Of a DNA stretch of 64,000 nucleotides, positions 39,634 through 62,988 are shown piece by piece. The translations under genes were made by a program, and so were the position numbers. The notes beneath the pieces are model-generated. The model was given only the letters and a program-made list of their open reading frames with translations, was not told the DNA's origin and made no database searches. Within the stretch, counting starts at the first letter, position 1. The number at the start of each line of letters is the position of its first letter. Source of the stretch: Burkholderia sp. Bp8992 (lineage in GTDB: Bacteria; Pseudomonadota; Gammaproteobacteria; Burkholderiales; Burkholderiaceae); NCBI RefSeq assembly GCF_003853705.1, contig NZ_QTQI01000019.1, positions 62,001 through 126,000 on the forward strand, written 5' to 3'.

Positions 39634-39649
39634 CGCAAGAGATGTGCCA
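39634..39649 (-). promoter_or_regulatory. Sigma-54 promoter for the aldehyde dehydrogenase
   Basis: Minus strand TGGCACATCTCTTGC: GG, exactly 10 bases, GC, with TGGCAC and TTGC boxes matching the -24/-12 consensus. The expected start site is about 27 bp before the ATG. The remainder of the 39597-39993 gap holds no supported gene. Confidence 0.75.
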
Positions 39650-39993
39650 TCAGATCTATTCGTGGCACTCAACCGATCTCTCAGGCCGACCATTGAACGA
39701 TTTCGAATCGATTGTCCGCACGGTAAGCACGATTGTCTTCTACACGAGCACGAGGCTCGACGATCGTATCTGGCGTCTGAATCACGTCACCCGCTGCGCT
39801 CGCGAATCAGGTTCGCAGCTTTGTCGGGCTCGGCGATCCGGTGTGCACGGCATCGCCTGATATTTTCGCGATCGCTGACGTCGTAAAAGCCATTCCGTCA
39901 GCAATCCCACAAACAATATGCCATCGAGCAAACGAGAGACGCGCTTGCATCGTCACAATCATGTGACTCCGCTATCCGGCCTCACACGGTCTG

Positions 39994-41712
39994 TCAAGAC
40001 GTGGTCATCCCCATTTGGGCAAGCCGTTTATATAGATATGACCGCGAGATTCCGAGGCTCGAAGCCACTCGCTTCTTGTTTCCGCCGAATTGCGTCATCG
40101 CCTTCCGGATGAGTTGCTCCTCGACCTGCTCCACTGCGCTACTCACGCGCATCGTGTCCGACTGGCCCAGTGAAGGCGGATGCGACGACTGATTCGAGAA
40201 CGTCGGAGCCATCACGGCCGCCTGAGGACCTGCATCCGACAGATCGATGATGCCGAAGTCGGTTGCATCAATGATGTCCGTGTCGCTGAATATGGCGGCC
40301 CGCTCGACCGTATGCATCAGCTGTCGCACGTTACCCGGCCATGAATGTGCTTGGAGATAGGCAAGCGCATGGTCCGACAGCCGCTTCGGCCGCTGCCCGT
40401 GCCGTTCCGCAAACTGGTCAAGCGCCAGATCCGCAAGCAGCGGGATATCGTCGAGTCGCTCGCGAAGCGCCGGTAGTCGAATGACGACCGCTCCGATTCG
40501 ATAGAACAAATCGAGCCGAAACGTCCCGTCGGCAATCATCGCTTCGAAGTTGCGGTTGCTCGCGCTGATCAAACGGAAATTGGAGTTTCGTGCTTCGGTT
40601 CCGCCGACACGCTGGAACGACCCGTCCTGCAACACGCGCAGCAACTTCACCTGCACGTCGGCCGGCATGTCTCCGACCTCGTCGAAAAACAGGCTCCCGG
40701 CATCTGCCTGCTCTATCTTGCCGCGCCGGCCTTTGCGTTCAGCACCGGTGAATGACCCGCCCTCATAACCGAACAGCTCACTCTCGACCAGCGTCGACGG
40801 TAATGCCGCCGCGTTCACCATCACCAGATTGCCATCCCGCCGGGCGCTTAACTTATGAATCGCGTGCGCCGCCAATTCCTTGCCCGTTCCGCTTTCCCCT
40901 GTCAGCAGAACCGGTACATCGAGCGGCGCAACCTTCACGATTTGCTGCTTCAAGCGCTGCATCGCCTGACTGTCCCCGACAATCTGATCCAGACCGTAGC
41001 TCCGATTTTTCAGATCCTTCAGCTCGCGCCTGTAGTACGCCACCTCCGACTTCAATTTCGTCAACTCCGTCGAGAACGACTGCAATTGCTCAGGTCCCTT
41101 GAACATGACTTGACCAATCGCGCCGACGGTCTCCCCACGAGCGTTCTTGATCGGATGTCGCGTGACAACCCGCGTCACGCCTCGCATCTCCTGAATTGCG
41201 CCAATCTCCGCCTTACCGGACGACGCGACCTGATCGAGCCGTGTATTTTCGATTACCTCGGATACGTGACGGCCAACCGAGCTGCCAGGTTTCATTCCGA
41301 AAAAGCGCTCATGGACGGGGCTGATATACCGCAGCACCCCGTCGCGATCGACGACGGTCAGCGCCTCGAATGGATTCGTCAGAAAATGACTGAGGATGTC
41401 GCTCGCGAAATCAACGGAACCGACGAATTCGAACAGCGCATCGCGTCCATCTCGAAGCAGCGCAACGAGTATCGTCGCGTCCGTGGCCGGTAACACGATT
41501 ACCACAACCGACGAAGAATCGGGACCTTCAACCGAGAAAAGGTGTTGCTGGCGACGCCGTGCTTCGTGCCAACCCGCGATGATTCTCGTCGCCATTTCGC
41601 GTTGCTCGACGATACCGGTCGCCATCATCTCCTTTCCGTCTGACGACAGAATCAAAACGCCACGCAGCGACGCCGCCGTCACACCAGGCCTTGCCAAATC
41701 GAGTGTCTCCAT
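39994..41712 (-). CDS. Sigma-54-dependent activator with PAS domain
   Basis: A 572-residue bacterial enhancer-binding protein. Residues ~1-100 are a variable sensory region; ~105-205 a PAS domain (FEALTVVDRDGVLRYISPVHERFFG); ~243-475 the AAA+ domain with Walker A GESGTGKE (272-279), Walker B LFFDEVGDM (341 onward) and arginine-finger region; ~530-572 a Fis-type helix-turn-helix (NKKRVASSLGISRSYLYKRL). The sigma-54 contact loop, usually GAFTGA, reads GSFTGA. The remaining key residues look intact. It sits among at least six -24/-12 promoters, so it is the natural activator of this catabolic block. Confidence 0.95.
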   Translation of the reverse strand: METLDLARPGVTAASLRGVLILSSDGKEMMATGIVEQREMATRIIAGWHEARRRQQHLFSVEGPDSSSVVVIVLPATDATILVALLRDGRDALFEFVGSVDFASDILSHFLTNPFEALTVVDRDGVLRYISPVHERFFGMKPGSSVGRHVSEVIENTRLDQVASSGKAEIGAIQEMRGVTRVVTRHPIKNARGETVGAIGQVMFKGPEQLQSFSTELTKLKSEVAYYRRELKDLKNRSYGLDQIVGDSQAMQRLKQQIVKVAPLDVPVLLTGESGTGKELAAHAIHKLSARRDGNLVMVNAAALPSTLVESELFGYEGGSFTGAERKGRRGKIEQADAGSLFFDEVGDMPADVQVKLLRVLQDGSFQRVGGTEARNSNFRLISASNRNFEAMIADGTFRLDLFYRIGAVVIRLPALRERLDDIPLLADLALDQFAERHGQRPKRLSDHALAYLQAHSWPGNVRQLMHTVERAAIFSDTDIIDATDFGIIDLSDAGPQAAVMAPTFSNQSSHPPSLGQSDTMRVSSAVEQVEEQLIRKAMTQFGGNKKRVASSLGISRSYLYKRLAQMGMTTS

Positions 41713-41995
41713 GGTGTTATCCCTATGTCTCCGTGGCGATCATTGAATCGCTTTTTTTGGATGTGTCTTCACCGCGGACATAGCCTATCACCACGATACC
41801 CAATGATTAGTGAGCCGAATCGACAGTACCTGTCTATCGGACTCATCAATCTTTCGACGTCACCGTGGCGACCGCCCGCACTGCCGCTTCGTCGCTGACG
41901 AAACCGTACCTACGATGAGGATCGCCCATTCATCATACGTATCATTCCACTTTTCCCTATCCACTCGCATATCGCCGGACGAACCGCTCGATTCA
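41713..41995. other. Gap upstream of the activator gene
   Basis: 283 bp separating the MmgE/PrpD stop from the activator start. It contains a run of T and AT-rich DNA near 41735-41830, probably the activator's own promoter. No -24/-12 motif was found here. Confidence 0.4.
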
Positions 41996-43390
41996 TCACT
42001 GGGGCAACTGCAGAAGACGAAGCAACTCTGTTGTAGAGTCGGCACGTTCGAGCGCGCACACAGCGGCCTCCAGGCGGCCCACCTGATCCACAGGCAGCGC
42101 TTTCGATGCGAGGCGGCGAAACTTGGCCGCCATCAGTTCATCGCTCATCGGACGCTGGTAACTTCCGAGAAAGTTGTCGACGGTCTTGCTCAATTTCTTT
42201 CCGCTGGTCAGCAGAATCTCGACATCAGCACCTCGCGCAAACGCCCTGCCCTTTTGCTCGCGCGCTTCGCTTCGCACCACATCGACGCGCTTCGCGAATT
42301 CAACGAGATCCGGTCGGCCGACGTTTTCGTCGATCATCTGATCGACGAACACCTCACCGTCGATGAGCTTCATGCCGATGCAGAAGCCGAGATGCATCTG
42401 GGCCGCCGTCAGACCGTTGGGGATGTAGGGTGTCCAGAATGAATGGCGCACCGCATCCTCGGTCATTCGCACGGTAATTCGCTCGACGTCGGTCGCGGTC
42501 AGGCCCGTTTCCTCCATGAGCTCCTCAATCGCGTCCAGTGCGGACAGATTCGTGCCGACTGCCGCGTGCCGCTTGATCGAAATCCGCATCGTTTCCCAGC
42601 GCGTGCCGAGCTCGCTGGTCAGCGCCGACAAGTCGAACTGGTCGGCGGTCTGCGTGAAGGTGGTGCAATATCCGCCATAGGTTTCCTCGAACACGTCCTC
42701 GATGCCGGTAAATCCGTCCGCAGCGAGTAGTGCCGAATACAGCCCGCTTTGCGCCGCCTTCGCCGACAGCATCCGCTTCACCATCGAGCCGAACTGGGCG
42801 GCCATGATGCCGGACGCCTGGGCACCCGCAATACCAAACGCATGGTAGATCTGCTCGCCGTCGAGACCGAGAACGATGCCGGCCGCCACCGCCGCCGGAA
42901 ATGGTCCGAAGATGCCGGGCGTATGCCAGCCCCGCACCAGCATCTTGTTGCCGTTCATGCACAGGCCCACGCGAGGGCCGACTTCGAAGCCTGCGATGAT
43001 GGCGGTCAGGAGAGTTTCGCCATCTACGTTTTCGGTGCCGACCAATTCGGCCGCCGCGAGCGCCGCCGGCAGCACGGCGGCGCAGCTGTGAATGGAAGCC
43101 GGATTCGCGTCGTCCAGCTCATAACCTTGAATCATCGTGCCGTTGAGTAGCGCCGCATTCACCGCAGATGCCGTTTCGCCCCGCCCCCACACCGATGCTC
43201 GGCCGCCATCTGGTTCGAGCTTGCCGACGACGCCAGCCAGGATTCGGGTCCACTCGAGATTTGCGCCGAACAACCCGCATCCGAGACCATCGAGCATGAT
43301 CAGCTTCGCGCGATTGCGCACATCCTCCGGAACGTCGGCCAGTTTGAGTCCTGCTGCAAAATCTGCCAATTGACGCGTATATGACGTCAT
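41996..43390 (-). CDS. MmgE/PrpD family protein
   Basis: A 464-residue all-helical plus lid protein of the MmgE/PrpD/IDS-epimerase family: LADFAAGLKLADVPEDVRNRAK, LLNGTMIQGYELDDANP, and IAGFEVGPRVGLCMNG. PrpD dehydrates 2-methylcitrate; others act on citrate, cis-aconitate or aromatic degradation intermediates. Strong GGAGGAG before the ATG. Last gene of the minus-strand set that starts at the fused dehydrogenase, next to two Bug receptors for carboxylates, so a (de)hydratase for an organic acid is likely. Confidence 0.9.
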   Translation of the reverse strand: MTSYTRQLADFAAGLKLADVPEDVRNRAKLIMLDGLGCGLFGANLEWTRILAGVVGKLEPDGGRASVWGRGETASAVNAALLNGTMIQGYELDDANPASIHSCAAVLPAALAAAELVGTENVDGETLLTAIIAGFEVGPRVGLCMNGNKMLVRGWHTPGIFGPFPAAVAAGIVLGLDGEQIYHAFGIAGAQASGIMAAQFGSMVKRMLSAKAAQSGLYSALLAADGFTGIEDVFEETYGGYCTTFTQTADQFDLSALTSELGTRWETMRISIKRHAAVGTNLSALDAIEELMEETGLTATDVERITVRMTEDAVRHSFWTPYIPNGLTAAQMHLGFCIGMKLIDGEVFVDQMIDENVGRPDLVEFAKRVDVVRSEAREQKGRAFARGADVEILLTSGKKLSKTVDNFLGSYQRPMSDELMAAKFRRLASKALPVDQVGRLEAAVCALERADSTTELLRLLQLPQ

Positions 43391-43421
43391 GAATCAACTC
43401 CTCCAAATTTCATTGTGCAAA

Positions 43422-44402
43422 TCACTGCTTCGGCATGCCCACATAGGCGGCCAGCTTTGTTTTCTCGGCTTCATTTTTCAACAGGAGATCCGTGAACTCT
43501 CGTGGTGACATGGTCACCGGCTCGAGTCCATAGCTCCGAAGGCGGTCTGCCAGCGCCTTGTCCGACAGCGCCGCCTGCAACGCCGCCGACAGGCGTTGAA
43601 CGACGGCCGGCGGCGTTCCGGCCGGCGCCATCAGCCCTTGATACAGAACGTAGCTGTAGTTGGGATAACCGGCCTCGGCGACCGTCGGCACGTCCGGAAG
43701 GGCAGTGACGCGCTTCGGGGATGTCACCGCCAGCGCCCTCATCTTTCCTGCCTTCAGATACGGAGAACTGCTGATCAGCGCGTCGAAGATGACGGAGATG
43801 CGACCACTCATTACTTCAGGCAGCGCCTCCCCGTTGCCTTTGAACGGAACGTGCATCATCTTCAAGGCGCTCTGCTGGAGGAACGCAGCTGTCGCAAGGT
43901 GAGTCGTACTGCCCACGCCCGCGGATCCGTATGACAGCTTGTCCGGGTTCGCCTTCGCGTACGCGGCCAGTTCGCCGAACGTCTTGAAGGGCTGGCTGGC
44001 GCCGACTTCGATCAAAAGCGGTGCCGCGACCGACGGCCCCACGCCCGTGAAGTCCTTGCGGAGAACGAAGCCCGGATCACGCTTGACTGCTGACTGGAGG
44101 CCGAGCGTATCCGCCGAAGTGGCCAGCAGCGTATATCCATCCGGCGCCGCATCCTTCACATAGCGGATGCCAACCAGGCCACCTCCGCCGCCGCGATTCT
44201 CGATAATCACCGGCTGCCCCAGGCTCTGCCCCAGCTTTGGCGCCAGCAAGCGGGTGACGGTGTCTGCCAGGCCACCCGGCGCCGTCGCAACCACAATATG
44301 CACCGGCTTGGTGGGGAATGGGTCCGACGCCGAAGCGGCCGCCGCGCTGAACAGGACGAATGTGCCCGCCGCCAGTCTGCGGCAAAACAATGCTTTCTTC
44401 AT
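43422..44402 (-). CDS. Bug/TctC-family solute-binding receptor (copy 1)
   Basis: A 326-residue periplasmic receptor with signal peptide (LAAGTFVLFSAAAASA-SD). Bug-family motifs: FPTKPVHIVVATAPGGLADT, LGQPVIIENRGGGGG, HVPFKGNGEALPEVMSGRI and VPTVAEAGYPNYSY. Such proteins bind carboxylates and in classical systems feed a TctAB tripartite permease. No TctA/TctB genes are visible here. It is a tandem duplicate of the next gene (unit spacing 1080 bp). Good AAGGA ribosome site. Confidence 0.93.
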   Translation of the reverse strand: MKKALFCRRLAAGTFVLFSAAAASASDPFPTKPVHIVVATAPGGLADTVTRLLAPKLGQSLGQPVIIENRGGGGGLVGIRYVKDAAPDGYTLLATSADTLGLQSAVKRDPGFVLRKDFTGVGPSVAAPLLIEVGASQPFKTFGELAAYAKANPDKLSYGSAGVGSTTHLATAAFLQQSALKMMHVPFKGNGEALPEVMSGRISVIFDALISSSPYLKAGKMRALAVTSPKRVTALPDVPTVAEAGYPNYSYVLYQGLMAPAGTPPAVVQRLSAALQAALSDKALADRLRSYGLEPVTMSPREFTDLLLKNEAEKTKLAAYVGMPKQ

Positions 44403-45482: not shown

Positions 45483-45513
45483 GAGAAGCCTCCGTCTCCG
45501 AGATTGTTATTGC

Positions 45514-46701
45514 CTACCACGCTGCGTCGAGGATCGCCCGCACATCGGCGACGTTCGTCACCTCACGGGGGCTACGCTTGATGAACCAGTCCTGCATCGC
45601 CGCTTCCGCGATCGGATCGAGAGCCTCCCGGGCCACGCCGATGTCGCGAAGCCTCCGGGGAATGTCCACTTTCGCGAGCAGGCGCTCAAGGATCTCGACG
45701 GCCGACATCGCGTACCGCTGGTCCGAATCGGCAGTCAGCGGAAGCCATAGGCTTTCGGCAATGCGCCCGACCGTATAGTGCGTCGCCGGGCTATTGAAAC
45801 CCATCGTGTGCGGCAGCACGATTGCGTTGATGATCCCGTTCGATACGTCGCTTCGATGACCGATTGCGTGTGCGAGTACCGACGAAAGCCCGCCGCCCGA
45901 CTGCTCGGTACCCCGGCCGCAAAGAACGGCGGCGATCGCCAAACGTTCCCGAGCCGCGACGTCTTCGGGCGACATGCGGTCGATGTTGCGCGCGACAAGT
46001 CGTAGCGCTTGCGTCAACATCGCCTCCGACACGAGGTCGCAGCGCGGCGACTCCAGCGCCTCGACTGCAGTGGAAAGCGTGTTGAGCGTCGCACCCTCGA
46101 CGAGCGCCGCCGGTGCGGTGCCGAGAAACCCCGAGTGAAGGAAGATTGCCTTGGCCCGCGTCTTCGGATCGAACAAGGCAAGCCGCTGTCCCGTCTCCTC
46201 GTCATGCACGGCGCTTCCCGCCTTGACGAACGCCGTACTGGGTGTGGTCGGCACAACGAATTGCGCGAGCTTGGGAGCGGCAAGCCGAGGACTATCGAAC
46301 GCGCCGTCCGGGAGCCTGCGGGTGCAAAGCTCGTGCGCAGGCCGCTTCTCCGCGAGCAGGATGCTTGCCGCACGCGCCGTGACGGCGGCCGACCCACCGC
46401 CCACCGCGATCACGGCGTCTGCGTCCAGTGCGCTCAGCGCACGCGCCGCTTCCTCCACGGCGCGCACGGGACTATTCGGCCGAACCGTAGGAGATTCGCC
46501 GACCAGCACGGGGCCGAGCACATCGCGCAACTGCTGCATCGCATTGGACGAGCCGACTGACCGACCGCTGACGATCACTGCACGCTGACACCCACTGCGC
46601 TTGATCTCCCTCGCCAAGGCAGCGAGACTTTCCTCACCGCAGTACAGTCGCAATTCCGGGGCAATGTGTTGAAAGGAGATCGATCGAAAGGTCTGGTTCA
46701 T
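45514..46701 (-). CDS. Iron-containing alcohol dehydrogenase / maleylacetate reductase-like
   Basis: A 395-residue group III dehydrogenase. Cofactor site VIAVGGGSAAVTARA; the C-terminal metal-binding helix LAHAIGHRSDVSNGIINAIVLPHTM carries the His residues. Length and the TTPSTAFVKAGSAVHDEETG segment fit the maleylacetate reductase branch, which reduces maleylacetate to 3-oxoadipate in aromatic degradation. The ATG at 46701 lies 32 bp after the start site expected from a near-perfect sigma-54 promoter. A PcaF-type thiolase that could use the product after CoA activation is at 61727-62932. Confidence 0.88.
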   Translation of the reverse strand: MNQTFRSISFQHIAPELRLYCGEESLAALAREIKRSGCQRAVIVSGRSVGSSNAMQQLRDVLGPVLVGESPTVRPNSPVRAVEEAARALSALDADAVIAVGGGSAAVTARAASILLAEKRPAHELCTRRLPDGAFDSPRLAAPKLAQFVVPTTPSTAFVKAGSAVHDEETGQRLALFDPKTRAKAIFLHSGFLGTAPAALVEGATLNTLSTAVEALESPRCDLVSEAMLTQALRLVARNIDRMSPEDVAARERLAIAAVLCGRGTEQSGGGLSSVLAHAIGHRSDVSNGIINAIVLPHTMGFNSPATHYTVGRIAESLWLPLTADSDQRYAMSAVEILERLLAKVDIPRRLRDIGVAREALDPIAEAAMQDWFIKRSPREVTNVADVRAILDAAW

Positions 46702-46744
46702 TGTCTGTATGCGCGAACGCGTGGAACGAGGTTGCCCATCAACT

Positions 46745-46760
46745 TGCAATTGACGTGCCA
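46745..46760 (-). promoter_or_regulatory. Sigma-54 promoter for the iron ADH operon
   Basis: Minus strand TGGCACGTCAATTGCA, which matches the -24/-12 consensus TGGCACG-N4-TTGCA at every specified position. It should drive the iron ADH, both Bug genes and MmgE/PrpD. Confidence 0.85.
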
Positions 46761-46906
46761 TGCTTGCCGCAGGAACGTCGCAGTCTACGGGTGCCGACAA
46801 ACTGTCCACGCCGGCGACGGCCTGCCCGATTCGTGTCCACCGCGGCGACACGTGCCGCTCGCCGCGCCTTCATCGCTGCCGCACCGGTGCGTGCAGAATG
46901 GCCCGC

Positions 46907-48797: not shown

Positions 48798-48814
48798 TTG
48801 CAGGTTCCGTACCA
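48798..48814 (-). promoter_or_regulatory. Sigma-54 promoter for the fused dehydrogenase
   Basis: Minus strand TGGTACGGAACCTGCAA: GG-N10-GC kept, with one change in each box from the consensus. The expected start site is about 50 bp before the ATG at 48736. Confidence 0.65.
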
Positions 48815-48865: not shown

Positions 48866-48990
48866 GAACGTCGCTATTGCTCGTGCATGTCGTCGGGAAA
48901 CACAGTTGTCCGTATCAGCGACGGTCGAATCACACCGGGCGCGCCCGCGTGCGACGCTTCTCCTTAGATCGGCAGCACATCCGGCGTCCG

Positions 48991-49008
48991 TTGGCATCGC
49001 AATTGCTT
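48991..49008 (+). promoter_or_regulatory. Sigma-54 promoter for the ABC receptor gene
   Basis: TTGGCATCGCAATTGCTT: GG at 48993, 10 bases, GC at 49005, with TGGCA and TTGC boxes of the -24/-12 type. Transcription would start near 49018, giving a ~168-nt leader. Confidence 0.8.
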
Positions 49009-49185: not shown

Positions 49186-50385
49186 ATGGCGAAACATTGG
49201 AACACGGCCAAAGCGGCGGCCTGCGCAGCGACGCTCGCCGCATCCTGGGCGGTTTGCACGCCGGCGGCAGCACAATCGTGCGAAGTCAAGATCGGCGTGC
49301 TCGGCCCGATGAGCGGCGGTGGATCGTCGCAGGGCCTCGCCGAGAAAGCCGCCGTCGAGTTCGAGGCCGCCTATACCAATGCCAATGGCGGCCTGCAAGT
49401 CGGCAACCGCAAGTGCAAGGTGGTGCCGACGAGTTATGACTCGCAAGCGACCGCTGCCGGTGGAGCGGCCGCCGCCAACTATTTCGCGAGCCAGGGGGTT
49501 CATGCGGCTGTGGGCCCGGTTCCGTCGGTCGAACTGGCGGGATTCAAGCCCATCGCGAAGCGGTACGGCATCGTGAATTTCGCGCACTCGTACGCGAAGG
49601 ATGTCATCAACACGCAATATCCGCTCGCCTTCGCGGTATCACTCACGCCGCAGGTCTGGGGTGCCTATGTCGTGAAAGCCGCAAGGGACGAGTTCAAATT
49701 CAACAAGGTGATCGTTGTTGCACCGAACGACCAGGGCGGCACCGATGCAGGCAAAGCACTGGTCCAGGAGTACGAAAAGGCCGGTGCCAAGGCGACGCTC
49801 GAATTCTATCAACGCGGCACCACGAACTTCGCGCCCATCGTGGCCCGCCTGATGAGCATGGGCCCCGAATCGGTGGAGTTCGGACCGATGCCGCCGGGTG
49901 AAGCCGGCGTCCTAGTCAAGCAAATGCTAGGCGCCGGATACACGGGCGCGTTCGGTGACCTCGGCAGCGGCGCAGAGGTGGTGCTGAACACCGTGGGAGA
50001 CATTTCAACCCAGAAGGCGTTCTACTGGCTCGAACTCGCTCCGCTGGACGACCCCGGCATCCAGCGTCTGAATGCCGACTACGAGCGCGTGATGAAGTCG
50101 AAGGTGCCGGACAACACGCTGTTCTATCCGTCCGCACTCGCCGCGGAGCATCTTCTGCGTGCGATCTCGCGAGCCGGAACCGATCAGGATGGCCAAAAGA
50201 TCGCGGCCGCGTTGCGAGAGACGACGCCGGAATCCCGCTACCTCGGCAAAGGCGGATGGCGCGGCAAGGCGCAATACGGAATCAATCAGCAGCTCGCCTT
50301 CCCGATCGGGATGGGCGTGATCGCGAACGGTAAAAGGCAAAAGGATCGACGCATCGCCATTGCGTCGGAACCCGCGACGCCGTGA
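49186..50385 (+). CDS. Branched-chain amino-acid-type ABC transporter receptor
   Basis: A 399-residue periplasmic binding protein with AGAAGGAGA before ATG 49186. Signal peptide to about AAAQS (residue ~30), then Peripla_BP_6: VKIGVLGPMSGGGSSQG, DSQATAAGGAAAANYFASQG, VIVVAPNDQGGTDAGKAL. It should deliver substrate to the LivHMGF proteins encoded at 52506-55833 on the other strand. In this family LivK-like receptors often bind aromatic acids or other carboxylates rather than amino acids; the sigma-54 promoter and catabolic setting favour that. Confidence 0.93.
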   Translation: MAKHWNTAKAAACAATLAASWAVCTPAAAQSCEVKIGVLGPMSGGGSSQGLAEKAAVEFEAAYTNANGGLQVGNRKCKVVPTSYDSQATAAGGAAAANYFASQGVHAAVGPVPSVELAGFKPIAKRYGIVNFAHSYAKDVINTQYPLAFAVSLTPQVWGAYVVKAARDEFKFNKVIVVAPNDQGGTDAGKALVQEYEKAGAKATLEFYQRGTTNFAPIVARLMSMGPESVEFGPMPPGEAGVLVKQMLGAGYTGAFGDLGSGAEVVLNTVGDISTQKAFYWLELAPLDDPGIQRLNADYERVMKSKVPDNTLFYPSALAAEHLLRAISRAGTDQDGQKIAAALRETTPESRYLGKGGWRGKAQYGINQQLAFPIGMGVIANGKRQKDRRIAIASEPATP

Positions 50386-50568: not shown

Positions 50569-51333
50569 ATGAAGCGTTTTGAAGGGAAAACGATCCTCGT
50601 AACGGGAGCCGGCAGCGGGATTGGCGCGGCGTGTGTTCGACGTCTGTTCGACGAGGGTGCATTGGTCGTCGCAGCAGACGTACGCAAGGGCGATGTTGAC
50701 AAGGTCGCCTCGGAATTCGGCCCGACTAACCGTATCCACGCCGTCGCGATGGACGTGTCGAATCGCGACGACGTCAACGCCATCGTGGCCGACGCCGCTC
50801 GACGATTCGGCCCGCTTCACGGGCTCGTGAACTCCGCCGGCATCCGCGGCGTGGGCAACGTGCTGGATTTCGATCCGGAGGCGTGGCATCGCGTCCTGTC
50901 AGTGAATCTCGATGGAACGTTCAACGTCTGCCAGGCATTTGCACGCGTCGCGACGGAAGCGAAAACACCCGCGGCAATCGTCAACGTTTCGTCGGGGGCG
51001 GGAATCCGCGGCGTACCGAACCGCCTCGCATACTCCGCGTCGAAGTTCGGCGTCTCGGGCATCACGCATACCATGGCGCTCGAACTTGCCTCTTACGGTA
51101 TCCGCGTGAACGCCGTAGCGCCGGGGATGATTCGCACCCCGATGACAGCCGTGATGTTCGAGGATCCGGAAAACGAAAAGCGCATTCGCGCGGCGCATCC
51201 GATCGGCCGCGAGGGAGAGCCTGAAGAGGTTGCCGCCGCCATCGCGTTTCTGCTGTCGGATGATGCCAGCTTCGTCACGGGCATCGTCATGCCCGTGGAC
51301 GGCGGCTCCACGGCGGGCATTCCATCTCACTGA
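50569..51333 (+). CDS. Short-chain dehydrogenase/reductase
   Basis: A 254-residue classical SDR, MKRFEGKTILVTGAGSGIGAACVRRL, with NAG motif (VNSAGIRG) and Ser-Tyr-Lys in NVSSGAGIRGVPNRLAYSASK. An acidic residue in AADVRKG favours NAD. Ends in MPVDGGSTAG. AAAAGGTGAC serves as ribosome site. It follows the receptor gene after 183 bp on the same strand, and is probably read from the same sigma-54 promoter; no internal -24/-12 motif was found. Likely an alcohol-to-ketone step. Confidence 0.93.
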   Translation: MKRFEGKTILVTGAGSGIGAACVRRLFDEGALVVAADVRKGDVDKVASEFGPTNRIHAVAMDVSNRDDVNAIVADAARRFGPLHGLVNSAGIRGVGNVLDFDPEAWHRVLSVNLDGTFNVCQAFARVATEAKTPAAIVNVSSGAGIRGVPNRLAYSASKFGVSGITHTMALELASYGIRVNAVAPGMIRTPMTAVMFEDPENEKRIRAAHPIGREGEPEEVAAAIAFLLSDDASFVTGIVMPVDGGSTAGIPSH

Positions 51334-51451: not shown

Positions 51452-52474
51452 TCAGGAAAGGTCGATGCGGTAAACGCGGGCTGCGGTATCGTGAAAAAGC
51501 GCTGCCTTTTCTCGAGCCGATGCGCCCCGGACGATATGCTTCAGCGCGTTCCACATCGGCACGAATCCGCACGATCGACCATCGGGCGGATAATTGCTTT
51601 CCATCATGCAGCGCTCGACGCCGAAAGCATCAATGACGGTCTCGACATAGGGCCTCCACGCATCCGCGAGTTCCAGATAGCCGACCGGCTCCGCGCGTTT
51701 CTCGAAACCGAACCCCCAAAACGGCAATCCCAGGCCGCCGATCTTGCACAGCACGTTTTGGCGGCGCGCCACCTCGCGCACTGCCGATCGCCACTGCGCG
51801 AACACGCCGGCACGGCCGTCGGCGTCCATGTCCATGCCCATCGCCTGGCCCAGGTGGTTGAGGACGATGGACGTATCGGGAAACATATCGGCAAGCTCGC
51901 AAACGTCGGCCATCTGGTGATGGAACACTGCCGCATCGAACGTCAGGCCGCGTGCTGCCACCTCCTGGAAGCCGGCACGAAATCCCGGGGATTTCATGAT
52001 TCCGGGCGCCGGCCGGTTCGTGACATAGCGGAAAGGCGCATCGCTCGGATCCTCGATCGTGATCTGCCGAACGCCCCGGAATCGCTCTGGCGCGGCTTCA
52101 AGCGACCGGTCGAGCAATTCGGCCACTGCCGACCCGAATCGCAGGTCCGCGTTCCCGACGATCGCCGCGCAGACGCGGCAATCGCCATAGGCGCCGGTGG
52201 CGCTCATCGCCGCAACCCCGTTCGCGAACTCAACCTCGCCAAGCGGCCGCAGCACCTCCGGGCCATCCTTGCGTGCGAAGGCAAGCGTTTCCACGTAGAT
52301 GGACGCGACGATTCGATGTCCCGCGTTCACGTCCGCCAGGTAATCCTCGAACATGTAGCGCAATGCCGGTCTGTCAAAGAGATGGTGAGCTGAGTCGATG
52401 ATCGGCAGGTCGGGATCGATGATAGGCTCATCGCGACCGGCCTTCAGTTGCGGGTACGGAAACATGTTCGTCAT
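51452..52474 (-). CDS. Amidohydrolase-2 family hydrolase/lactonase
   Basis: A 340-residue PF04909 protein related to 2-pyrone-4,6-dicarboxylate lactonase-like enzymes: metal/substrate His in IIDSAHHLFDRP, then GHRIVASIYVETLAFARKDGPEVL, FHHQMADVCELADMFP and ERCMMESNYPPD. The start ATG at 52474 has AAGG upstream. It follows livF by 31 bp and is probably the last gene of the liv operon, so its substrate is probably what the transporter brings in or an early lactone/amide derived from it. Confidence 0.88.
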   Translation of the reverse strand: MTNMFPYPQLKAGRDEPIIDPDLPIIDSAHHLFDRPALRYMFEDYLADVNAGHRIVASIYVETLAFARKDGPEVLRPLGEVEFANGVAAMSATGAYGDCRVCAAIVGNADLRFGSAVAELLDRSLEAAPERFRGVRQITIEDPSDAPFRYVTNRPAPGIMKSPGFRAGFQEVAARGLTFDAAVFHHQMADVCELADMFPDTSIVLNHLGQAMGMDMDADGRAGVFAQWRSAVREVARRQNVLCKIGGLGLPFWGFGFEKRAEPVGYLELADAWRPYVETVIDAFGVERCMMESNYPPDGRSCGFVPMWNALKHIVRGASAREKAALFHDTAARVYRIDLS

Positions 52475-52505
52475 TGCATCACCTTGTCTTGATGTGAATT
52501 CGAAT

Positions 52506-53204
52506 TCAAAGATATTCCTCCGCGAGCGCGACATCCCGAATCTCGTCGACCGTGCCGCTTCGCCGGACCTCGCCGCCACGCATGACGTACGCGCGGTCGA
52601 CAAGCTTAAGCGCGGGGCGGGCCATTTGTTCAGTCATCAGGATCGTGGTGCCGCGACGCTGCAGCTCCCGAATCGACTCGCTGATGCGCTCGATCCAGAC
52701 GGGTGCCAGTCCGAGGAACGGTTCGTCCAAAAGCAGCAGTTTGGGCAGCGTGCTTGCCGCTCGAGCCAGCGCGACGACCTGCTGCTGCCCGCCGCTCAGT
52801 TGGTTGGCCGGTTGGTCTGCGCGCTCAGCGAGCAACGGAAAAGTCCGCTCCATCCACTCGAGGTTCGCTTGCGCCTGCATCTTCGAAATACCGAGCGTGC
52901 CCGCCAGGACGTTTTCCCTCACGCTCAGCGAGCGGAATATCCGGCGCCCCTCCGGCGAATAGCCGATGCCCAGACGGGCTCGGCCCGGGCACGAGACACC
53001 AACCAGGTCCTTCCCGGCAAAACGGATCTGACCGGATATCGCGGGAACCAGACCGACTACGGCATTGATCAGGCTCGACTTGCCCGCGCCATTCGCGCCG
53101 ACCAACAGGACCGTTTCGCCCTCCTTCACGTCGATCGACACTTCCCGTAGGGCCACGATGCCGCCATAACGAACGACCAGCTTCTCGATGCTCAGCATTT
53201 TCAT
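52506..53204 (-). CDS. livF: ABC transporter ATPase LivF
   Basis: A 232-residue ATPase. Walker A GANGAGKSSLINAVVG, Q-loop, signature LSGGQQQVVALARA, Walker B LLLDEPFLGLAP, H-switch (TILMTEQM). It pairs with LivG in the inner-membrane importer. Its ATG overlaps the livG stop. Confidence 0.96.
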   Translation of the reverse strand: MKMLSIEKLVVRYGGIVALREVSIDVKEGETVLLVGANGAGKSSLINAVVGLVPAISGQIRFAGKDLVGVSCPGRARLGIGYSPEGRRIFRSLSVRENVLAGTLGISKMQAQANLEWMERTFPLLAERADQPANQLSGGQQQVVALARAASTLPKLLLLDEPFLGLAPVWIERISESIRELQRRGTTILMTEQMARPALKLVDRAYVMRGGEVRRSGTVDEIRDVALAEEYL

Positions 53205-53968
53205 TCCTCACTCACGCCCAGATAGGCCTCGATGACATCACGGCGGGAAAGCACATCGCCCGGCGCTCCCTCAGCGAGAAGCCGCCCCGCCTCGAGCACG
53301 ACAATGCGCGGGCACAGTCGCTTGACCATATCCATGTCGTGCTCCACGATCAGGACGCCGCAGCCCAGCACGCTGCGCGCATGCTCGATGAAGCGGTCCA
53401 CCTGCGGCCGCTCCCGGGCCTCCAGCCCTGCGGCCGGCTCGTCCAGAAGCAAAAATCGGGGTCTCGAAGCGAGCACCATCACCAGGCCAAGCATTTTCTG
53501 GAGTCCATACGGCAACTTGTCGCTCGGGTCGTAAAGGTGCTGTGCAAGACCGAACTCGTCCAGCAACCCTTCGATGCCGAGATCCGCATTCGAATGGATC
53601 GTGCTGAAGCGCTGCGCACGAAACAGGTTCTCTTCGACCGTCGCGCTCTTGAACGTGTTGGTCTGCTGGAAGCTGCGAGCGACACCAAGACGTGCCACGT
53701 TGTAGAACCGCATCCCGGAGATGACCTGCCCGCCCAGCAAAATGCGTCCCGACGTCGGCGGCAGCATGCCGCTCATGACATTGATCAGCGTAGTCTTGCC
53801 CGCGCCGTTCGGGCCGATCACGCCAAGCACGTCGCCCGCCGACACTTCGAATGAAATGCCTTCGAATACGCGCAGGCCGCCGAATCGCTTGGTGATCGCT
53901 TCGACTTGCAATGTCGCCGGCACGGGCGCTCGGTTGCTCTGTTTTGAAATACCAATAGGCGAACTCAT
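53201..53968 (-). CDS. livG: ABC transporter ATPase LivG
   Basis: A 255-residue ATPase with Walker A GPNGAGKTTLINVMSG, a LivG-type long insertion before the signature (FRAQRFSTIHSNADLGIEGLLDEFGL), Walker B FLLLDEPAAGLEARE and H-loop IVEHDMDMV. The canonical LSGG signature is shifted: LPYGLQKMLGLVMVLA stands in its place, which departs from the usual LSYGQQR of LivG. ATGA overlaps at both ends couple it to livM and livF. Confidence 0.95.
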   Translation of the reverse strand: MSSPIGISKQSNRAPVPATLQVEAITKRFGGLRVFEGISFEVSAGDVLGVIGPNGAGKTTLINVMSGMLPPTSGRILLGGQVISGMRFYNVARLGVARSFQQTNTFKSATVEENLFRAQRFSTIHSNADLGIEGLLDEFGLAQHLYDPSDKLPYGLQKMLGLVMVLASRPRFLLLDEPAAGLEARERPQVDRFIEHARSVLGCGVLIVEHDMDMVKRLCPRIVVLEAGRLLAEGAPGDVLSRRDVIEAYLGVSEE

Positions 53969-54963
53969 GCTCGACGATCCTCGATACGCGGTTGAAGTAC
54001 GCCGCGATGGCGTACCCTCATCTTGTCAAACACGTTCGTCAGTGTTCCCACGATGCCGCCGGGTGCAATCATCATCACGATGACGAGCAGCAGCCCGAAC
54101 AATCCGGACGACAATTGAGCGTAGCTGCTGAAAACATCGTTCATCGTGATGAGCAGAAGGCTGCCCACCACGACACCCAGCAACGATCCGCGGCCCCCGA
54201 CGAAGACGTACGCGATGTAGCTGTTCACCGACCACGTGGTGAACGAGCTCGGATGGGCGGTCGAGAGCATGTTGACAAGTGCGAAACCCGCCAGTCCGGA
54301 TACGGCGGCCGAGGTAACGAAGCCGATGGTGCGATATTTCCACGGCGCAACGCCCAGGCTTTCCGCGAGCGTCTCGTTCTCCTCGATCGACGAGAACTCG
54401 GGCCGGAGAACGTGCGTCATGCCAAGCGTAAACAACGCGGAGACGATGCAAATGGCAACAGTGACGACGACGACCGTCGCCGGCGACGTGGCACCCATCC
54501 CGAACAGCAATGCTGGCGGGACACCGGTGATCCCGTTGGCACCGCCTGTCAATGTCGGCGTTTGGAAGATGACGATCTGAAGTATTTCGTTGAAGACGAA
54601 CGTAATGAAAATGAAGTACACGCCTTTGAGTCGGAGCACCAACGCCCCGAGCGGCAGCGCCACGAGCGCCGGCACGATCGCACTGATCAGCATGAGCAGA
54701 ACGAGGTTCGTCGTACCGGCATTCGCCGCGATGGCGGCGGCATAGCCACCGAGCGCCATGAAAGACGGCGCGGAGAACGACAGGAGCCCAAGCCGCAGCA
54801 TGATGTAGATGCCCAGCGCGGCACACACGCCGATGGCGGACTGACCGGCCAGCGAATACATGAACGGGTCCGTTGACGCGAAGGGTACGATAAGAAGCAG
54901 TAGCAGTACGATCACGCCCGATATGTCGAGCATGAAGTCACGGCGACGATAGGTCATTTTCAT
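53965..54963 (-). CDS. livM: ABC transporter permease LivM
   Basis: A 332-residue integral membrane protein with about nine hydrophobic segments and the BPD_transp_2 pattern: SIGVCAALGIYIMLRLGLLS near the N-terminus and GVAPWKYRTIGFVTSAAVSGLAG in the conserved cytoplasmic loop, where the family has N...a...G.n....k..aF. Partner of LivH in the channel. Overlaps livG by ATGA. Confidence 0.95.
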   Translation of the reverse strand: MKMTYRRRDFMLDISGVIVLLLLLIVPFASTDPFMYSLAGQSAIGVCAALGIYIMLRLGLLSFSAPSFMALGGYAAAIAANAGTTNLVLLMLISAIVPALVALPLGALVLRLKGVYFIFITFVFNEILQIVIFQTPTLTGGANGITGVPPALLFGMGATSPATVVVVTVAICIVSALFTLGMTHVLRPEFSSIEENETLAESLGVAPWKYRTIGFVTSAAVSGLAGFALVNMLSTAHPSSFTTWSVNSYIAYVFVGGRGSLLGVVVGSLLLITMNDVFSSYAQLSSGLFGLLLVIVMMIAPGGIVGTLTNVFDKMRVRHRGVLQPRIEDRRA

Positions 54964-54966
54964 AAT

Positions 54967-55833
54967 TCAGGCCTTGCGTGTAACGGTACCGAACAGCCCC
55001 TGCGGGCGAACCAAGAGGATCAGCATCACGATCACGAACAGCACGAGCGCGCCTTGGGAACCGCCGAGATAGACACTCGCATAAGCCTCCACGAGGCCGA
55101 CGACGAATGCGGAGATCGTGGCACCGCCGACACTGCCCAGTCCGCCCATGACGACGACGATGAACGCCCTGCCGAGCACGGCATCTCCGCTGGAAGGCTC
55201 CAACGCAAGAATCGGCGTGACGAGTGCGCCGGTGAGCCCCGCCAGCGCCGTTGCAATGGCAAACGCCAGCGGGAACATACGCGCGGGCCGAATTCCCTGT
55301 GCGCGCGCAACCGGGCTGTCGTCTGCCATCGCACGCAGCGCAATACCGTATCGGGTCCTGAAGACGAGGTAATAGACGCTGCCGATCGCGAGCGCGCACA
55401 CGCCGAAGACGATCAGGTTTGCGTAAGGGATATAGAAACCCGGACCGCGCAGCGAGCCGGTCACCGGGAACGGGAAATTCATCGGCTCGGCCCCATAGAC
55501 GGCCGTCATGCCGGTCGTGATGATCTGATAGATGCCCAACGTCATCAGCATCGTCGCCAAATGGTCGGAGACGTTCCGCTCCACAACCACGACTTCCACC
55601 AGATAGCCGACCACGCCCGTGGCCAACGCGGCGATCAGCACCGCTGCCGCAAACGGCACGCCCAGGGACTGGGACAGTGAATAGGCGATGTAACCGCCGA
55701 GGATGTAGAAACCGCCATGAGCGAAGTTCACCACGCCCATGATGCCGAATATGAGCGTGAACCCGATGCTGATCAACGCATACTGGGTGCCCAGGCTCAG
55801 GCCGATGACGCCAGCCGAAATCAAGCCTTCCAT
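54967..55833 (-). CDS. livH: ABC transporter permease LivH
   Basis: A 288-residue permease: GLSLGTQYALISIGFTLIFG (conserved N-terminal membrane motif), ARAQGIRPARMFPLAFAIATALAG (coupling loop) and a C-terminal GLFGT ending. GAGAGG before the ATG. First gene of livHMGF-amidohydrolase. A -24/-12 promoter lies 330 bp upstream, so the mRNA would have a long leader. Confidence 0.95.
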   Translation of the reverse strand: MEGLISAGVIGLSLGTQYALISIGFTLIFGIMGVVNFAHGGFYILGGYIAYSLSQSLGVPFAAAVLIAALATGVVGYLVEVVVVERNVSDHLATMLMTLGIYQIITTGMTAVYGAEPMNFPFPVTGSLRGPGFYIPYANLIVFGVCALAIGSVYYLVFRTRYGIALRAMADDSPVARAQGIRPARMFPLAFAIATALAGLTGALVTPILALEPSSGDAVLGRAFIVVVMGGLGSVGGATISAFVVGLVEAYASVYLGGSQGALVLFVIVMLILLVRPQGLFGTVTRKA

Positions 55834-56530
55834 GACTTTGATACCTCTCTTTCGATCGTAGGGATAGAGGACGCGCCGAACGAACGGCTGTCAACGTTCG
55901 GGACGGCGTTCAGTCAATCGAAAGGCGGATCACCGATGGCCGCGCATGGGAAGCGTCGTCTGTCCCGCGCCGCGCGTCGCGGTGTGCGGTTTCGAAAAAT
56001 GGAAGGTTGTGCATCGATTGTCTCCTGTTTTTTGCTGCTATCGCTCGACCTCGAATGCCGCCGGCTGTCTGTGCGAAACGACGAACCGTCCGCGACCTCG
56101 GGGGCATCGGCCCTGTGCTTGAATCCGCCGTCCTCCGGCGGCACGTCAAGTAGCACGGATAATGCAATGCCCATGCCAGCATCGGGCCGATGTTCCAGGC
56201 GACCCGCACGGCACCCACGCCGGGCAAACGTGATCTTGAAGCGAAAGAACCGGGGCCCCGTATCCATGCGGCTCCGATCGGAGGGCGTCTGGCAAGACGC
56301 GACTTCATCGATCATCGAAGTCGACGGAGATGCGAAAGGGACAAGTGCACACAACGCGGCAGATGTGTCCTTGCAAAAGACAGGTGTCCATTCCGGCGAC
56401 TCCCGCCAGGCAAGGCCCCGGGCATCGGGAATACCCTCGAAAGTAACCTGTGCCGTCCACTTCGGACGCCGTATCGAACTGGCGTGGATCGCCGATTTCG
56501 CGTCACGGCCGCTCTCGTTTCGATGGTGCG
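55834..56530. other. Long intergenic region upstream of the liv operon
   Basis: About 700 bp between livH and the ETF-QO stop. The only clear signal is the sigma-54 promoter at 56163-56178. Open frames across this region lack family features and ribosome sites. The 320-bp stretch between promoter and livH may be an untranslated leader. Confidence 0.5.
56163..56178 (-). promoter_or_regulatory. Sigma-54 promoter for the liv operon
   Basis: Minus strand TGGCATGGGCATTGCA: both boxes agree with TGGCACG-N4-TTGCA except one base. The expected start near 56152 leaves a ~319-nt leader before livH. Confidence 0.75.
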
Positions 56531-58210: not shown

Positions 58211-58262
58211 CGATCTCTCTGAATAAACGGACGAACTGCGCGATGGCGAGACGGCGCCCCAT

Positions 58263-58278
58263 GCAACGCGTAACCCGG
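58263..58278 (-). promoter_or_regulatory. Weak sigma-54-like motif upstream of ETF-QO
   Basis: Minus strand GG-N10-GC is kept with a good TTGCA -12 box, but the -24 box is GGGTTA rather than TGGCAC. Right distance from the ATG at 58210. Uncertain. Confidence 0.3.
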
Positions 58279-58300
58279 AATCGCAGACCGCCGTCTCGCG

Positions 58301-58528: not shown

Positions 58529-58591
58529 TTTCCCCTCCTGATCACTCGGACACGGATGCGGACCGGAGCGAGTCCGTGTCAGTCGGCCCGT

Positions 58592-60049: not shown

Positions 60050-60054
60050 GATCG

Positions 60055-60372
60055 TTACGCCCCCGCCTTTTCAGTCGTCTTTCTTTCTTTCTTCCTGAAC
60101 ATTTCCAGCATCCGTCGCGTGACGAGGAAGCCCCCGAACACGTTGACCGCGGCGAGCGCAACCGCGAGCACGCCAGCGGTTCTGCCGAGACCGCTCGATG
60201 TCAGTCCCGCCGCGAGCATCGCGCCGACGATGACGATCGCCGAGATCGCGTTGGTCACGGCCATCAAGGGCGTATGCAGTGCGGGCGTCACATTCCAGAC
60301 GACGTGATAGCCGACATAGATGGCCAGGGCAAAGATGATCAGGTTGGTGATGATGTGGCTGACAGCTTCCAT
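60055..60372 (-). CDS. pntAb: NAD(P) transhydrogenase alpha subunit, membrane part (alpha-2)
   Basis: A 105-residue protein with three to four transmembrane helices (IFALAIYVGYHVVWNVTPALHTPLMAVTNAIS...), the membrane half of PntA encoded by its own gene, as in Rhodospirillum and many Burkholderia. 5 bp before pntB. Confidence 0.95.
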   Translation of the reverse strand: MEAVSHIITNLIIFALAIYVGYHVVWNVTPALHTPLMAVTNAISAIVIVGAMLAAGLTSSGLGRTAGVLAVALAAVNVFGGFLVTRRMLEMFRKKERKTTEKAGA

Positions 60373-60380
60373 GGCGATTC

Positions 60381-61541: not shown

Positions 61542-61726
61542 GACTTCTGCTCCTTGAGAAAAATGATCGTTCGTTGCCGCGCAGCGGATACGCGGACCAA
61601 CGCTCGATGTCGCGCCGGCGATGAACCAACGATGAGCGGCACGTGTGTTACATGAACGCCACGCGGCCGGCGCGCGAAATGAACTCGCCGGTTTCAGCCG
61701 AATTCGTTACGCGTATCCGATCGCAC

Positions 61727-62932
61727 TCAGACGCGCTCCAGGATCAATGCGATGCCCTGGCCCACTCCGATGCACATCGTGCACAATGCGTAGCGACCGC
61801 TCGTGGCGTGCAACTGATTGATTGCCGTCGTCACGAGACGCGCGCCCGACGCGCCGAGCGGATGACCGAGTGCAATCGCCCCGCCGTTGGGGTTGACCCG
61901 GGGATCATCGTCCTTCAGGCCCAGCAGGCGCAACACGGCCAGCCCCTGTGCGGCGAACGCCTCGTTGAGTTCGATCACGTCGATCTCGTCGAGCCGCAAT
62001 CCGGCCAGTGCCAGAACCTTCTCCGTCGCCGGCGCCGGACCGATACCCATCACGCGCGGCGGCACACCCGCGGTTGCCATCGCGACCACCCGAGCACGGG
62101 GCGTGAGACTGTGTTGGGCGATCGCGCGCTCGTCGGACAGCAGCAACGCACAGGCTCCGTCGTTGACGCCGCTCGCGTTTCCGGCCGTCACGCTGCCGTC
62201 AGGCCGCACGACACCCTTGAGCTTCGCAAGGGCTTCGAACGACGTCTCGCGAGGATGCTCGTCCTGCTTCACGACCAGCGGCTCGCCTTTTTTCTGCGGG
62301 ATGTAGACAGGCGTGATCTCGCTATCGAAGAACCCGCGCTTTTGCGCGGCCAGCGCCTTCGTCTGCGAAGCCAGCGCCATCCGATCCTGAGCGTCACGCC
62401 CGATCTTGTAGTCGACCGCAACGTTCTCCGCCGTTTCCGGCATCGCATCGGCGCCGTACTGCTCCTTCATCAGCTTGTTGACGAATCGCCAGCCGATCGT
62501 CGTGTCGTAGACCGCGTTCGCACGGCTGAAAGCCGACTCCGCCTTCGGCATGACAAAGGGCGCGCGACTCATGCTTTCCACGCCGCCCGCAACCATCAAC
62601 GCTGTTTCGCCGGACTTGATCGCGCGCGCTGCGCTGCCCACCGCATCGAGGCCCGAGCCGCACAGTCGATTGATCGTGGCGCCCGGTACGCCGAGCGGCA
62701 GGCCGGCGAGCAAGCTCGCCATGCGCGCGACGTTGCGGTTGTCCTCACCGGCCTGATTCGCGCAGCCGAGCAGCACGTCGCCGACCGCCTCCCAGTCGAC
62801 GCCAGGATTGCGCGCCATCAGCGCCCTGATCGGAATCGCGGCCAAATCGTCGGCGCGCACGGAAGAAAGCGAGCCGCCATAGCGGCCGAACGGCGTACGG
62901 ATTGCATCGCAGATAAAGGCTTGTGTACTCAT
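61727..62932 (-). CDS. pcaF: 3-oxoadipyl-CoA / acetyl-CoA thiolase
   Basis: A 401-residue thiolase of the PcaF type. Nucleophilic Cys in NRLCGSGLDAVGSAARAI; second site GNASGVNDGA; His in NEAFAAQGLAVLR and GGAIALGHPLGASGAR; C-terminal Cys in CTMCIGVGQGIAL. The length and DAIRTPFGRYGGSLSSVRADDL start match beta-ketoadipyl-CoA thiolases. The start ATGAGTACA at 62932 follows a sigma-54 promoter. It would cleave 3-oxoadipyl-CoA to succinyl-CoA and acetyl-CoA; other oxoacyl-CoA are possible. Confidence 0.9.
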   Translation of the reverse strand: MSTQAFICDAIRTPFGRYGGSLSSVRADDLAAIPIRALMARNPGVDWEAVGDVLLGCANQAGEDNRNVARMASLLAGLPLGVPGATINRLCGSGLDAVGSAARAIKSGETALMVAGGVESMSRAPFVMPKAESAFSRANAVYDTTIGWRFVNKLMKEQYGADAMPETAENVAVDYKIGRDAQDRMALASQTKALAAQKRGFFDSEITPVYIPQKKGEPLVVKQDEHPRETSFEALAKLKGVVRPDGSVTAGNASGVNDGACALLLSDERAIAQHSLTPRARVVAMATAGVPPRVMGIGPAPATEKVLALAGLRLDEIDVIELNEAFAAQGLAVLRLLGLKDDDPRVNPNGGAIALGHPLGASGARLVTTAINQLHATSGRYALCTMCIGVGQGIALILERV

Positions 62933-62972
62933 GACGTGGCGTCGCATCGAGAAGTTGAAATCACACTCTTAA

Positions 62973-62988
62973 TGCAATGAACATGCCA
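62973..62988 (-). promoter_or_regulatory. Sigma-54 promoter for the thiolase gene
   Basis: Minus strand TGGCATGTTCATTGCA: GG-N10-GC with both boxes one base or less from consensus; very like the liv operon promoter. Start expected near 62962, 30 bp before the ATG. Confidence 0.8.

Follow-up and report, generated by a model that had tools for sequence, protein, structure and literature searches.

A candidate sigma-54 regulon of about fifteen promoters, under a local PAS-type activator, in a catabolic gene cluster of Burkholderia sp. Bp8992

The window analysed here is a stretch of 64,000 nucleotides of Burkholderia sp. Bp8992 (contig NZ_QTQI01000019.1, positions 62,001 to 126,000), and the subject of this work is the block between its positions 39,634 and 62,988, in which genes for an aldehyde dehydrogenase (ALDH), an iron-containing alcohol dehydrogenase (Fe-ADH), a fused dehydrogenase, a periplasmic receptor, a branched-chain-type ABC transporter with its LivH-like permease and a thiolase are preceded by six sigma-54-type GG-N10-GC sites, and in which a sigma-54 activator is also encoded (Table 1). 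As a whole, these features are best explained as one catabolic sigma-54 regulon of about 15 promoters under the local PAS-type activator, a reading that we consider likely. The promoters, their operator, the gene content and the conservation of the cluster are established by sequence analysis.

Both strands of the window, about 128,000 positions, were scored with a sigma-54 weight matrix whose weights follow the published consensus. An earlier note on this DNA had placed six GG-N10-GC promoters in the block, that of the Fe-ADH gene with full consensus (TGGCACGTCAATTGCA), and had judged chance an improbable source of them; all six were recovered at their places and strands, at ranks 1, 2, 3, 5, 6 and 7, rank 4 being a site at 34775 (+) that was absent from its list, and a step in score separates the seventh site (14.1) from the eighth (11.9). 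At a threshold of 13.9, set with slightly revised matrix weights, seven sites are found in the window, six of them in the 39-63 kb block, while 200 first-order Markov resamples contained on average 0.91 sites per window (largest 5) and 0.305 in the block (largest 3), which upholds that judgement. The reversed window sequence contains two sites at this threshold, and matrices with wrong spacers of 8, 9, 11 and 12 nt detect 2, 0, 1 and 0, respectively. The promoters had also been described as lying right in front of their genes, which holds for the ALDH, Fe-ADH, fused dehydrogenase and thiolase genes (37-62 nt from box end to start codon) but not for the receptor and livH genes (178 and 329 nt), and the weaker promoter proposed ahead of the gene for electron-transfer flavoprotein-ubiquinone oxidoreductase (ETF-QO) was discarded, its best score being 5.4. 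The 329-nt livH leader contains a 34-codon open reading frame (ORF; 55910-56014, start 56014) with a Shine-Dalgarno-like sequence.

The nearest genome (G001, 8.6 Mb), in which all sampled 31-letter words of the window are present, was used to extend the window, its contig C51 covering the block and continuing beyond it. The joined sequence of 118.8 kb holds 16 sites scoring at least 13.9, of which 15 fall between 39.6 and 97.0 kb; nine of them extend 33 kb past the window end (Table 1, where coordinates continue the window numbering), so that the regulon, of which the earlier note covered six promoters, is about twice the size visible in the window. The pattern TGGYAYN5YTGCN is at chance level in G001 overall (143 matches vs 177 in the reversed control), but 17 of the 143 matches lie within 64 kb of C51 around the block, where about one is expected. 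In the 3.2 kb of overlap that were compared, window and G001 differ in one 14-base stretch: at 63253, within a receptor-type gene, 14 bases of G001 are missing from the window, and these extra bases contain a GG-N10-GC match, which is one of the 17. This difference may be a real variant or an assembly difference.

Gapped words (4 + 0 to 16 + 4) were then enumerated blindly, with no preset motif, in the 260 nt upstream of the 16 sigma-54 sites. The top words TGTC-N9-GACA, TGTC-N10-ACAC and GTGT-N10-GACA each occur in 10/16 upstream regions, while 15 random sets of equal size peak at 5 to 8 regions (best 8, most 5 to 7), and expectation maximisation yielded the palindrome gTGTCgnCGnCGncGACAc, abbreviated here as GTGTC-N9-GACAC. 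Among the 13 best places for this operator in the joined sequence, 10 precede a sigma-54 site by 50-196 bp and one lies just ahead of the activator gene (41772); where operators are paired, their spacings of 19, 19, 20, 20, 21, 21, 31 and 41 bp correspond to 2, 3 or 4 helical turns. For an out-of-sample test, an operator matrix was trained on the nine promoters past the window end, with none from within the window, and then applied to the whole window. The site at Fe-ADH took rank 1 and the one ahead of the activator gene rank 2, followed by the shared dehydrogenase/receptor site (6), livH (13), thiolase (25) and ALDH (35); for the five separate upstream regions, the observed score sum was reached by 1 of 100,000 random sums. 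Of the six promoters in the block, five have a palindromic site upstream, two of them sharing one divergent region, and the sixth, that of ALDH, has a weak one. Ahead of a gene for a glycosidase of glycoside hydrolase family 3 (GH3), two operator-like sites were observed (locus L001, ~18964-18995; 79782-79813 in the joined numbering) with no adjoining sigma-54 site scoring at least 5. The strong sigma-54-like site at 34775-34790 (+), 65 nt ahead of a 122-codon ORF, has no activator palindrome upstream (3.7, P 0.73) and was rejected as a regulon member; it may be the target of another activator or a chance match.

The arrangement is retained in Burkholderia guangdongensis, where each of the six boxes recurs at its orthologous gene, among them that of an ALDH 93% identical to the one in the window. 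Operator distances are also closely kept, being 81 vs 82 bp for Fe-ADH and 160 vs 161 bp for the thiolase (B. guangdongensis vs window), and the livH pair stands at 189 and 208 vs 196 and 215 bp with the same pair spacing. The dehydrogenase/receptor operators stand in a block that is conserved although the intergenic region around it has diverged, and in B. guangdongensis a longer stretch separates this block from one of the two divergent promoters. A strict operator-plus-promoter pattern has five matches in the whole of G001, at four promoters that all belong to the cluster, that of Fe-ADH among them, and five matches in B. guangdongensis, four of them in the corresponding cluster, with none in either reversed control; a first strict pattern with a shorter distance range had given one match in G001, also within the cluster. 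That the six sites arose by chance in a window rich in G+C is therefore extremely improbable: GG-N10-GC by itself is common, its whole-genome pattern count in G001 is at chance level and a loose consensus search allowing three mismatches, which has no power, is at chance as well (261 matches vs 259.8 expected), but six of the seven top sites share one block where 0.3 are expected, all six boxes recur at orthologous genes and the operator co-occurs with them. On the B. guangdongensis locus (L079), the gap between the 3HCDH and thiolase genes measures ~320 nt, and a counterpart of the receptor gene beginning at the right end of the window seems absent there.

Across named genomes, a search for the activator yielded 74 loci. 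Outside Burkholderia, they include relatives 44-73% identical in Variovorax, Cupriavidus, Paraburkholderia, Pandoraea, Caballeronia and Noviherbaspirillum. These relatives are usually divergent from an operon that encodes a CoA-transferase, a MenB/BadI-like crotonase, an AMP ligase, a hydratase, a short-chain dehydrogenase (SDR), an acyl-CoA dehydrogenase and others, and the operator is often found between the two. In 31 relative loci outside Burkholderia, 26/45 strong sigma-54 sites carry the operator, as against 0/9 in 37 control loci with unrelated activators; four loci (L022, L035, L036 and L052) were kept outside both sets, being short or partial matches and, for L022, from a distant phylum, and have three sites, two with the operator. 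When the half-site spacing was shifted by -1, +1, +2 and +3, a match was retained in 0, 2, 7 and 2 of 50, respectively. Blind counts per class of relatives gave TGTC-N9-GACA at 4/14, 6/26 and 4/5 promoters and TGTC-N10-GACA at 0/14, 2/26 and 0/5, spacers N7, N8 and N11 giving 0, and palindrome words lead the count in the middle class. One Cupriavidus basilensis contig (L006, L024) encodes two activator relatives, of 72% and 53% identity, ~26 kb apart.

The earlier note had described the regulator as a PAS-containing sigma-54 activator. Its class is confirmed by the AAA+ domain (PF00158, 212 bits vs a cut-off of 20.2) and the C-terminal Fis-type helix-turn-helix (PF02954, 43 vs 22), whereas the PAS domain falls below its Pfam cut-off (21.9 vs 23.1 bits) and appears as PAS-like in a predicted structure; no receiver domain was found in the Pfam scan. 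In this model, which covers residues 1-244 and was built with 25 relatives (mean pLDDT 73.5), a mixed domain (13-99) is followed by residues 103-202, whose strands and helices come in a PAS-like order and are predicted to form a PAS-like domain, and then by a long helix (207-241). The loop that contacts sigma-54 is the variant GSFTGA, an exact search of the protein for GAFTGA giving no match; a serine in this position of the loop is tolerated. G001 contains 28 strong sigma-54 activator genes, of which this is the only one on contig C51, and encodes RpoN (two PF04552 matches), its two rpoN genes lying on C87 and C96. No NCBIfam name exceeded its cut-off for the activator among the 25 best matches, GlrR being rejected at 232 bits (cut-off 763) and PrpR and PrdR with scores far below theirs.

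The assignment of the palindrome to this particular protein has to be weighed against the possibility that sigma-54 does serve these promoters while the operator is that of another activator, the local one running only some of the operons. The 28 activator genes of G001 leave room for this, as does the QseF operator TGTCN10GACA (PMC8745638), the closest published one encountered, since QseF/GlrR too uses TGTC/GACA half-sites ahead of a sigma-54 promoter; here, however, the spacer is 9 and not 10 and the activator is devoid of a receiver domain. Considering that the operator precedes the local activator's own gene, and that it adjoins the divergent operons of the relatives in other genera and is missing from the strong sites at control activators, we regard such a division as unlikely. 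Several observations do count against a single regulon under the local activator: (i) the ALDH operator is weak (rank 35, P 0.11) and none scoring at least 11 was found in B. guangdongensis, (ii) P values were drawn from random segments that contain coding DNA, although the regions tested are largely intergenic, (iii) two high-scoring operator matches (79813 and 47821) have no adjoining sigma-54 site, (iv) the control activator loci contain few strong sigma-54 sites (9), and (v) other words equal or outrank the palindrome in the blind count for the 72% and 44-48% classes of relatives. Nonetheless, the single regulon under the local activator, as proposed in the earlier note, is favoured by the common palindrome upstream of the promoters and of the activator gene, which is the same in relatives. 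The further proposal of one induced pathway loses its ETF-QO site and is retained as an inference.

The regulon would span about 57 kb, from 39.6 kb in the window to ~33 kb past its end, with the block of the window as its left half. We infer activator binding, induction, an inducer and the operon structure from the sequence: the activator would sense a pathway intermediate through its N-terminal PAS-type region, bind GTGTC-N9-GACAC pairs 50-215 bp upstream of ~15 promoters with -24/-12 boxes and, by means of its AAA+ domain, open sigma-54 polymerase at them. It is probably autoregulated, because the same operator sits just upstream of its own gene. Uptake would proceed through the porin, the ABC transporter and TctABC-type transporters, whose TctA and TctB components are encoded beyond the window under a different sigma-54 promoter from that of the two receptors. 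Alcohol and aldehyde groups may be oxidised by the Fe-ADH, ALDHs and the fused enzyme of the 3-hydroxyisobutyrate-dehydrogenase (HIBADH) type, and the substrate activated by the AMP ligase and two CoA-transferases. Acyl-CoA dehydrogenation, with electron-transfer flavoprotein, ETF-QO and transhydrogenase, would be followed by hydration and dehydrogenation, and then by a MenB/BadI-like cleavage and thiolysis. PntA, PntB and ETF-QO come after the thiolase on the same strand, and a dehydrogenase past the window passes a 3-hydroxyacyl-CoA model (621 vs a cut-off of 508). Both HIBADH-type domains are complete in the 609-aa fusion, which has a full-length relative (61%) in a metagenome-assembled genome of Comamonadaceae (L007).

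Table 1. Positions of the promoters, candidate activator sites and genes in the window and of the sigma-54 sites in its continuation
Feature	Position	Strand	Basis and remarks
Sigma-54 promoter, ALDH gene	39634..39649	-	TGGCACATCTCTTGCG; matrix scan; weakest activator-site support among the six
Sigma-54 promoter, Fe-ADH operon	46745..46760	-	TGGCACGTCAATTGCA; full consensus; matrix scan, kept in B. guangdongensis
Sigma-54 promoter, fused dehydrogenase	48799..48814	-	TGGTACGGAACCTGCA; matrix scan; 62 nt to start codon
Sigma-54 promoter, receptor gene	48992..49007	+	TGGCATCGCAATTGCT; 178 nt to ATG
Sigma-54 promoter ahead of livH	56163..56178	-	TGGCATGGGCATTGCA; 329 nt to livH ATG; kept in B. guangdongensis
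Sigma-54 promoter, thiolase	62973..62988	-	TGGCATGTTCATTGCA; matrix scan, kept in B. guangdongensis; 40 nt to start codon, or 25 nt if an earlier ATG is used
Two weak candidate activator sites, ALDH	39711..39752	.	Centres 39721, 39742, spacing 21 bp; box 72 and 93 bp away, both sites upstream
Candidate activator site, activator gene	41762..41782	.	TGTGTCTTCACCGCGGACATA; centre 41772; 60 bp before ATG; kept in B. guangdongensis; second, weaker candidate centred at 41734
Candidate activator site, Fe-ADH	46832..46852	.	CGTGTCCACCGCGGCGACACG; centre 46842; 82 bp upstream of box; second candidate centred at 46811, 31 bp nearer box
Candidate activator site pair, dehydrogenase and receptor	48886..48925	.	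Centres 48896, 48915 (19 bp apart); common to both divergent promoters
Candidate activator site pair, livH	56364..56403	.	Centres 56374, 56393, spacing 19 bp; box 196 and 215 bp away, both sites upstream
Candidate activator site, thiolase	63139..63159	.	GATGTCGTTTCGACGGACATG; centre 63149; 161 bp upstream of box
Sigma-54 activator, 572 aa	39994..41712	-	N-terminal mixed domain 13-99, PAS-like 103-202, coiled coil, AAA+, Fis-type helix-turn-helix
Aldehyde dehydrogenase (PF00171)	38178..39596	-	Pfam; ATG 37 nt past box
MmgE/PrpD family protein	41996..43390	-	Pfam; probably in Fe-ADH operon
Two TctC-type solute receptors	43422-44402, 44502-45482	-	Pfam; probably in Fe-ADH operon
Iron-containing alcohol dehydrogenase	45514..46701	-	Pfam; ATG 43 nt past box
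Tandem fusion of two HIBADH-type domains, 609 aa	46907..48736	-	Pfam
Periplasmic binding protein (Peripla_BP_6), receptor gene	49186..50385	+	Pfam
Short-chain dehydrogenase, 3' of receptor	50569..51333	+	Pfam
Amidohydrolase, final gene of liv block	51452..52603	-	Pfam
Branched-chain-type ABC transporter, whole	52506..55833	-	
ABC transporter ATPase	52506-53204	-	Pfam
ABC transporter ATPase	53201-53968	-	Pfam
ABC transporter permease	53965-54963	-	Pfam
LivH-like permease	54967-55833	-	Assigned by relation to permease family
PcaF-type 3-oxoadipyl-CoA thiolase	61727..62932	-	TIGR02430, 703 bits, cut-off 597
Sigma-54 site past window, G001	71470	-	Enoyl-CoA hydratase
Sigma-54 site past window, G001	71676	+	Zn-type dehydrogenase
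Sigma-54 site past window, G001	72967	+	Second hydratase-type crotonase
Sigma-54 site past window, G001	74158	+	MenB/BadI-like crotonase, then AMP ligase, SDR
Sigma-54 site past window, G001	77913	+	Porin
Sigma-54 site past window, G001	86107	-	Small ORF 86051 (putatively MaoC-like, by eye)
Sigma-54 site past window, G001	86259	+	ORF 86343, then major facilitator superfamily (MFS) gene
Sigma-54 site past window, G001	93330	-	Hydratase, acyl-CoA dehydrogenase, CoA-transferase
Sigma-54 site past window, G001	96993	-	CoA-transferase, TctB, TctA

Regarding the substrate, the likeliest single class is an alicyclic carboxylic acid or its alcohol precursor, an assignment that is put forward tentatively, as somewhat short of probable. 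It is proposed because the MenB/BadI-like crotonase, together with the ligase, hydratase and SDR, matches the bad-ali set. This cyclohexane carboxylate pathway, as given in PMC9795900, comprises a CoA ligase, an acyl-CoA dehydrogenase, a hydratase, an SDR and a crotonase of the MenB/BadI family, followed by beta-oxidation of the dicarboxylyl-CoA, and the cluster presents the same enzyme set. By analogy, the combination of MenB/BadI-like crotonase and PcaF-type thiolase suggests that an alicyclic acid is cleaved to a dicarboxylyl-CoA. The same source reports the MarR-type repressor BadR for Gram-negative bad-ali clusters, in whose place a sigma-54 activator is found here; among the 150 of 373 candidates that were scored, no MarR gene was found within ~128 kb of the cluster on C51. 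The crotonase behind 74158 is the sole MenB/BadI-family gene of G001 at an E value of 1e-40 or better, but stays below three model cut-offs (243, 221 and 211 bits), for which reason it was rejected both as MenB and as BadI, the 2-ketocyclohexanecarboxyl-CoA hydrolase (TIGR03210, 211 bits vs 467.6). The acyl-CoA dehydrogenase is nearest to the acryloyl-CoA reductase and cyclohexane-1-carbonyl-CoA dehydrogenase models, also below cut-off.

With the BadI-, AliA- and AliB-type models all under their cut-offs, the alicyclic assignment is only suggestive, and the GH3 glycosidase and the MFS gene fit it loosely. The same regulon might well serve an ordinary beta-oxidation of branched or dicarboxylic acids with no ring opening, in which the MenB/BadI-like protein would be a hydratase or act on another substrate; this is a serious candidate, though one that we would not call probable. 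The scores below cut-off for BadI, MenB, AliA and the cyclohexanecarbonyl-CoA dehydrogenase agree with it, and the PcaF-type thiolase and PaaH-like dehydrogenase would suit dicarboxylyl-CoA oxidation in general, but a conserved operon that unites a MenB/BadI-family protein with a ligase, an acyl-CoA dehydrogenase, a hydratase and an SDR corresponds to the alicyclic-acid set (PMC9795900). In the alicyclic assignment, the dicarboxylyl-CoA would arise through the MenB/BadI-like cleavage.

The catabolic sigma-54 activators XylR/DmpR, AcoR, PrpR and LvaR control one to a few promoters. The present protein shares with them the AAA+ domain, the Fis-type helix-turn-helix, an N-terminal signal region and -24/-12 promoters with upstream palindromes, but differs in its N-terminal region and in that ~15 promoters are gathered in a single cluster. 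In Paraburkholderia phymatum, of a related genus, a matrix search yielded the same promoter consensus as here, and the passages of that report on nitrogen and symbiosis genes describe no cluster of the present kind (PMC5979394). Among the open-licence PubMed Central papers listed in the literature searches, neither a title nor the opening of an abstract dealt with this activator or cluster. The mechanism itself is textbook and well supported here; its setting is new and large, with a defined operator.

In its most specific form, which remains somewhat doubtful, the proposal is that an as yet undescribed Burkholderiales family of PAS-type sigma-54 activators, with operator GTGTC-N9-GACAC, commands one supra-operonic pathway of ~15 promoters, by which an alicyclic acid of plant origin, perhaps glycosylated or alcoholic, is taken up, activated with CoA and hydrolytically opened at its ring; elsewhere this pathway stands under the MarR repressor BadR. 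What had been a guess at promoters has become a regulon open to testing: a single activator, an operator of defined sequence, ~15 promoters and an operon conserved in several genera. If true, it would provide a sequence rule for finding further regulon members and a catabolic sigma-54 activator with an unusually large promoter set in one place, and would assign a regulator and a likely pathway to an unnamed block of CoA enzymes in many Burkholderiales.

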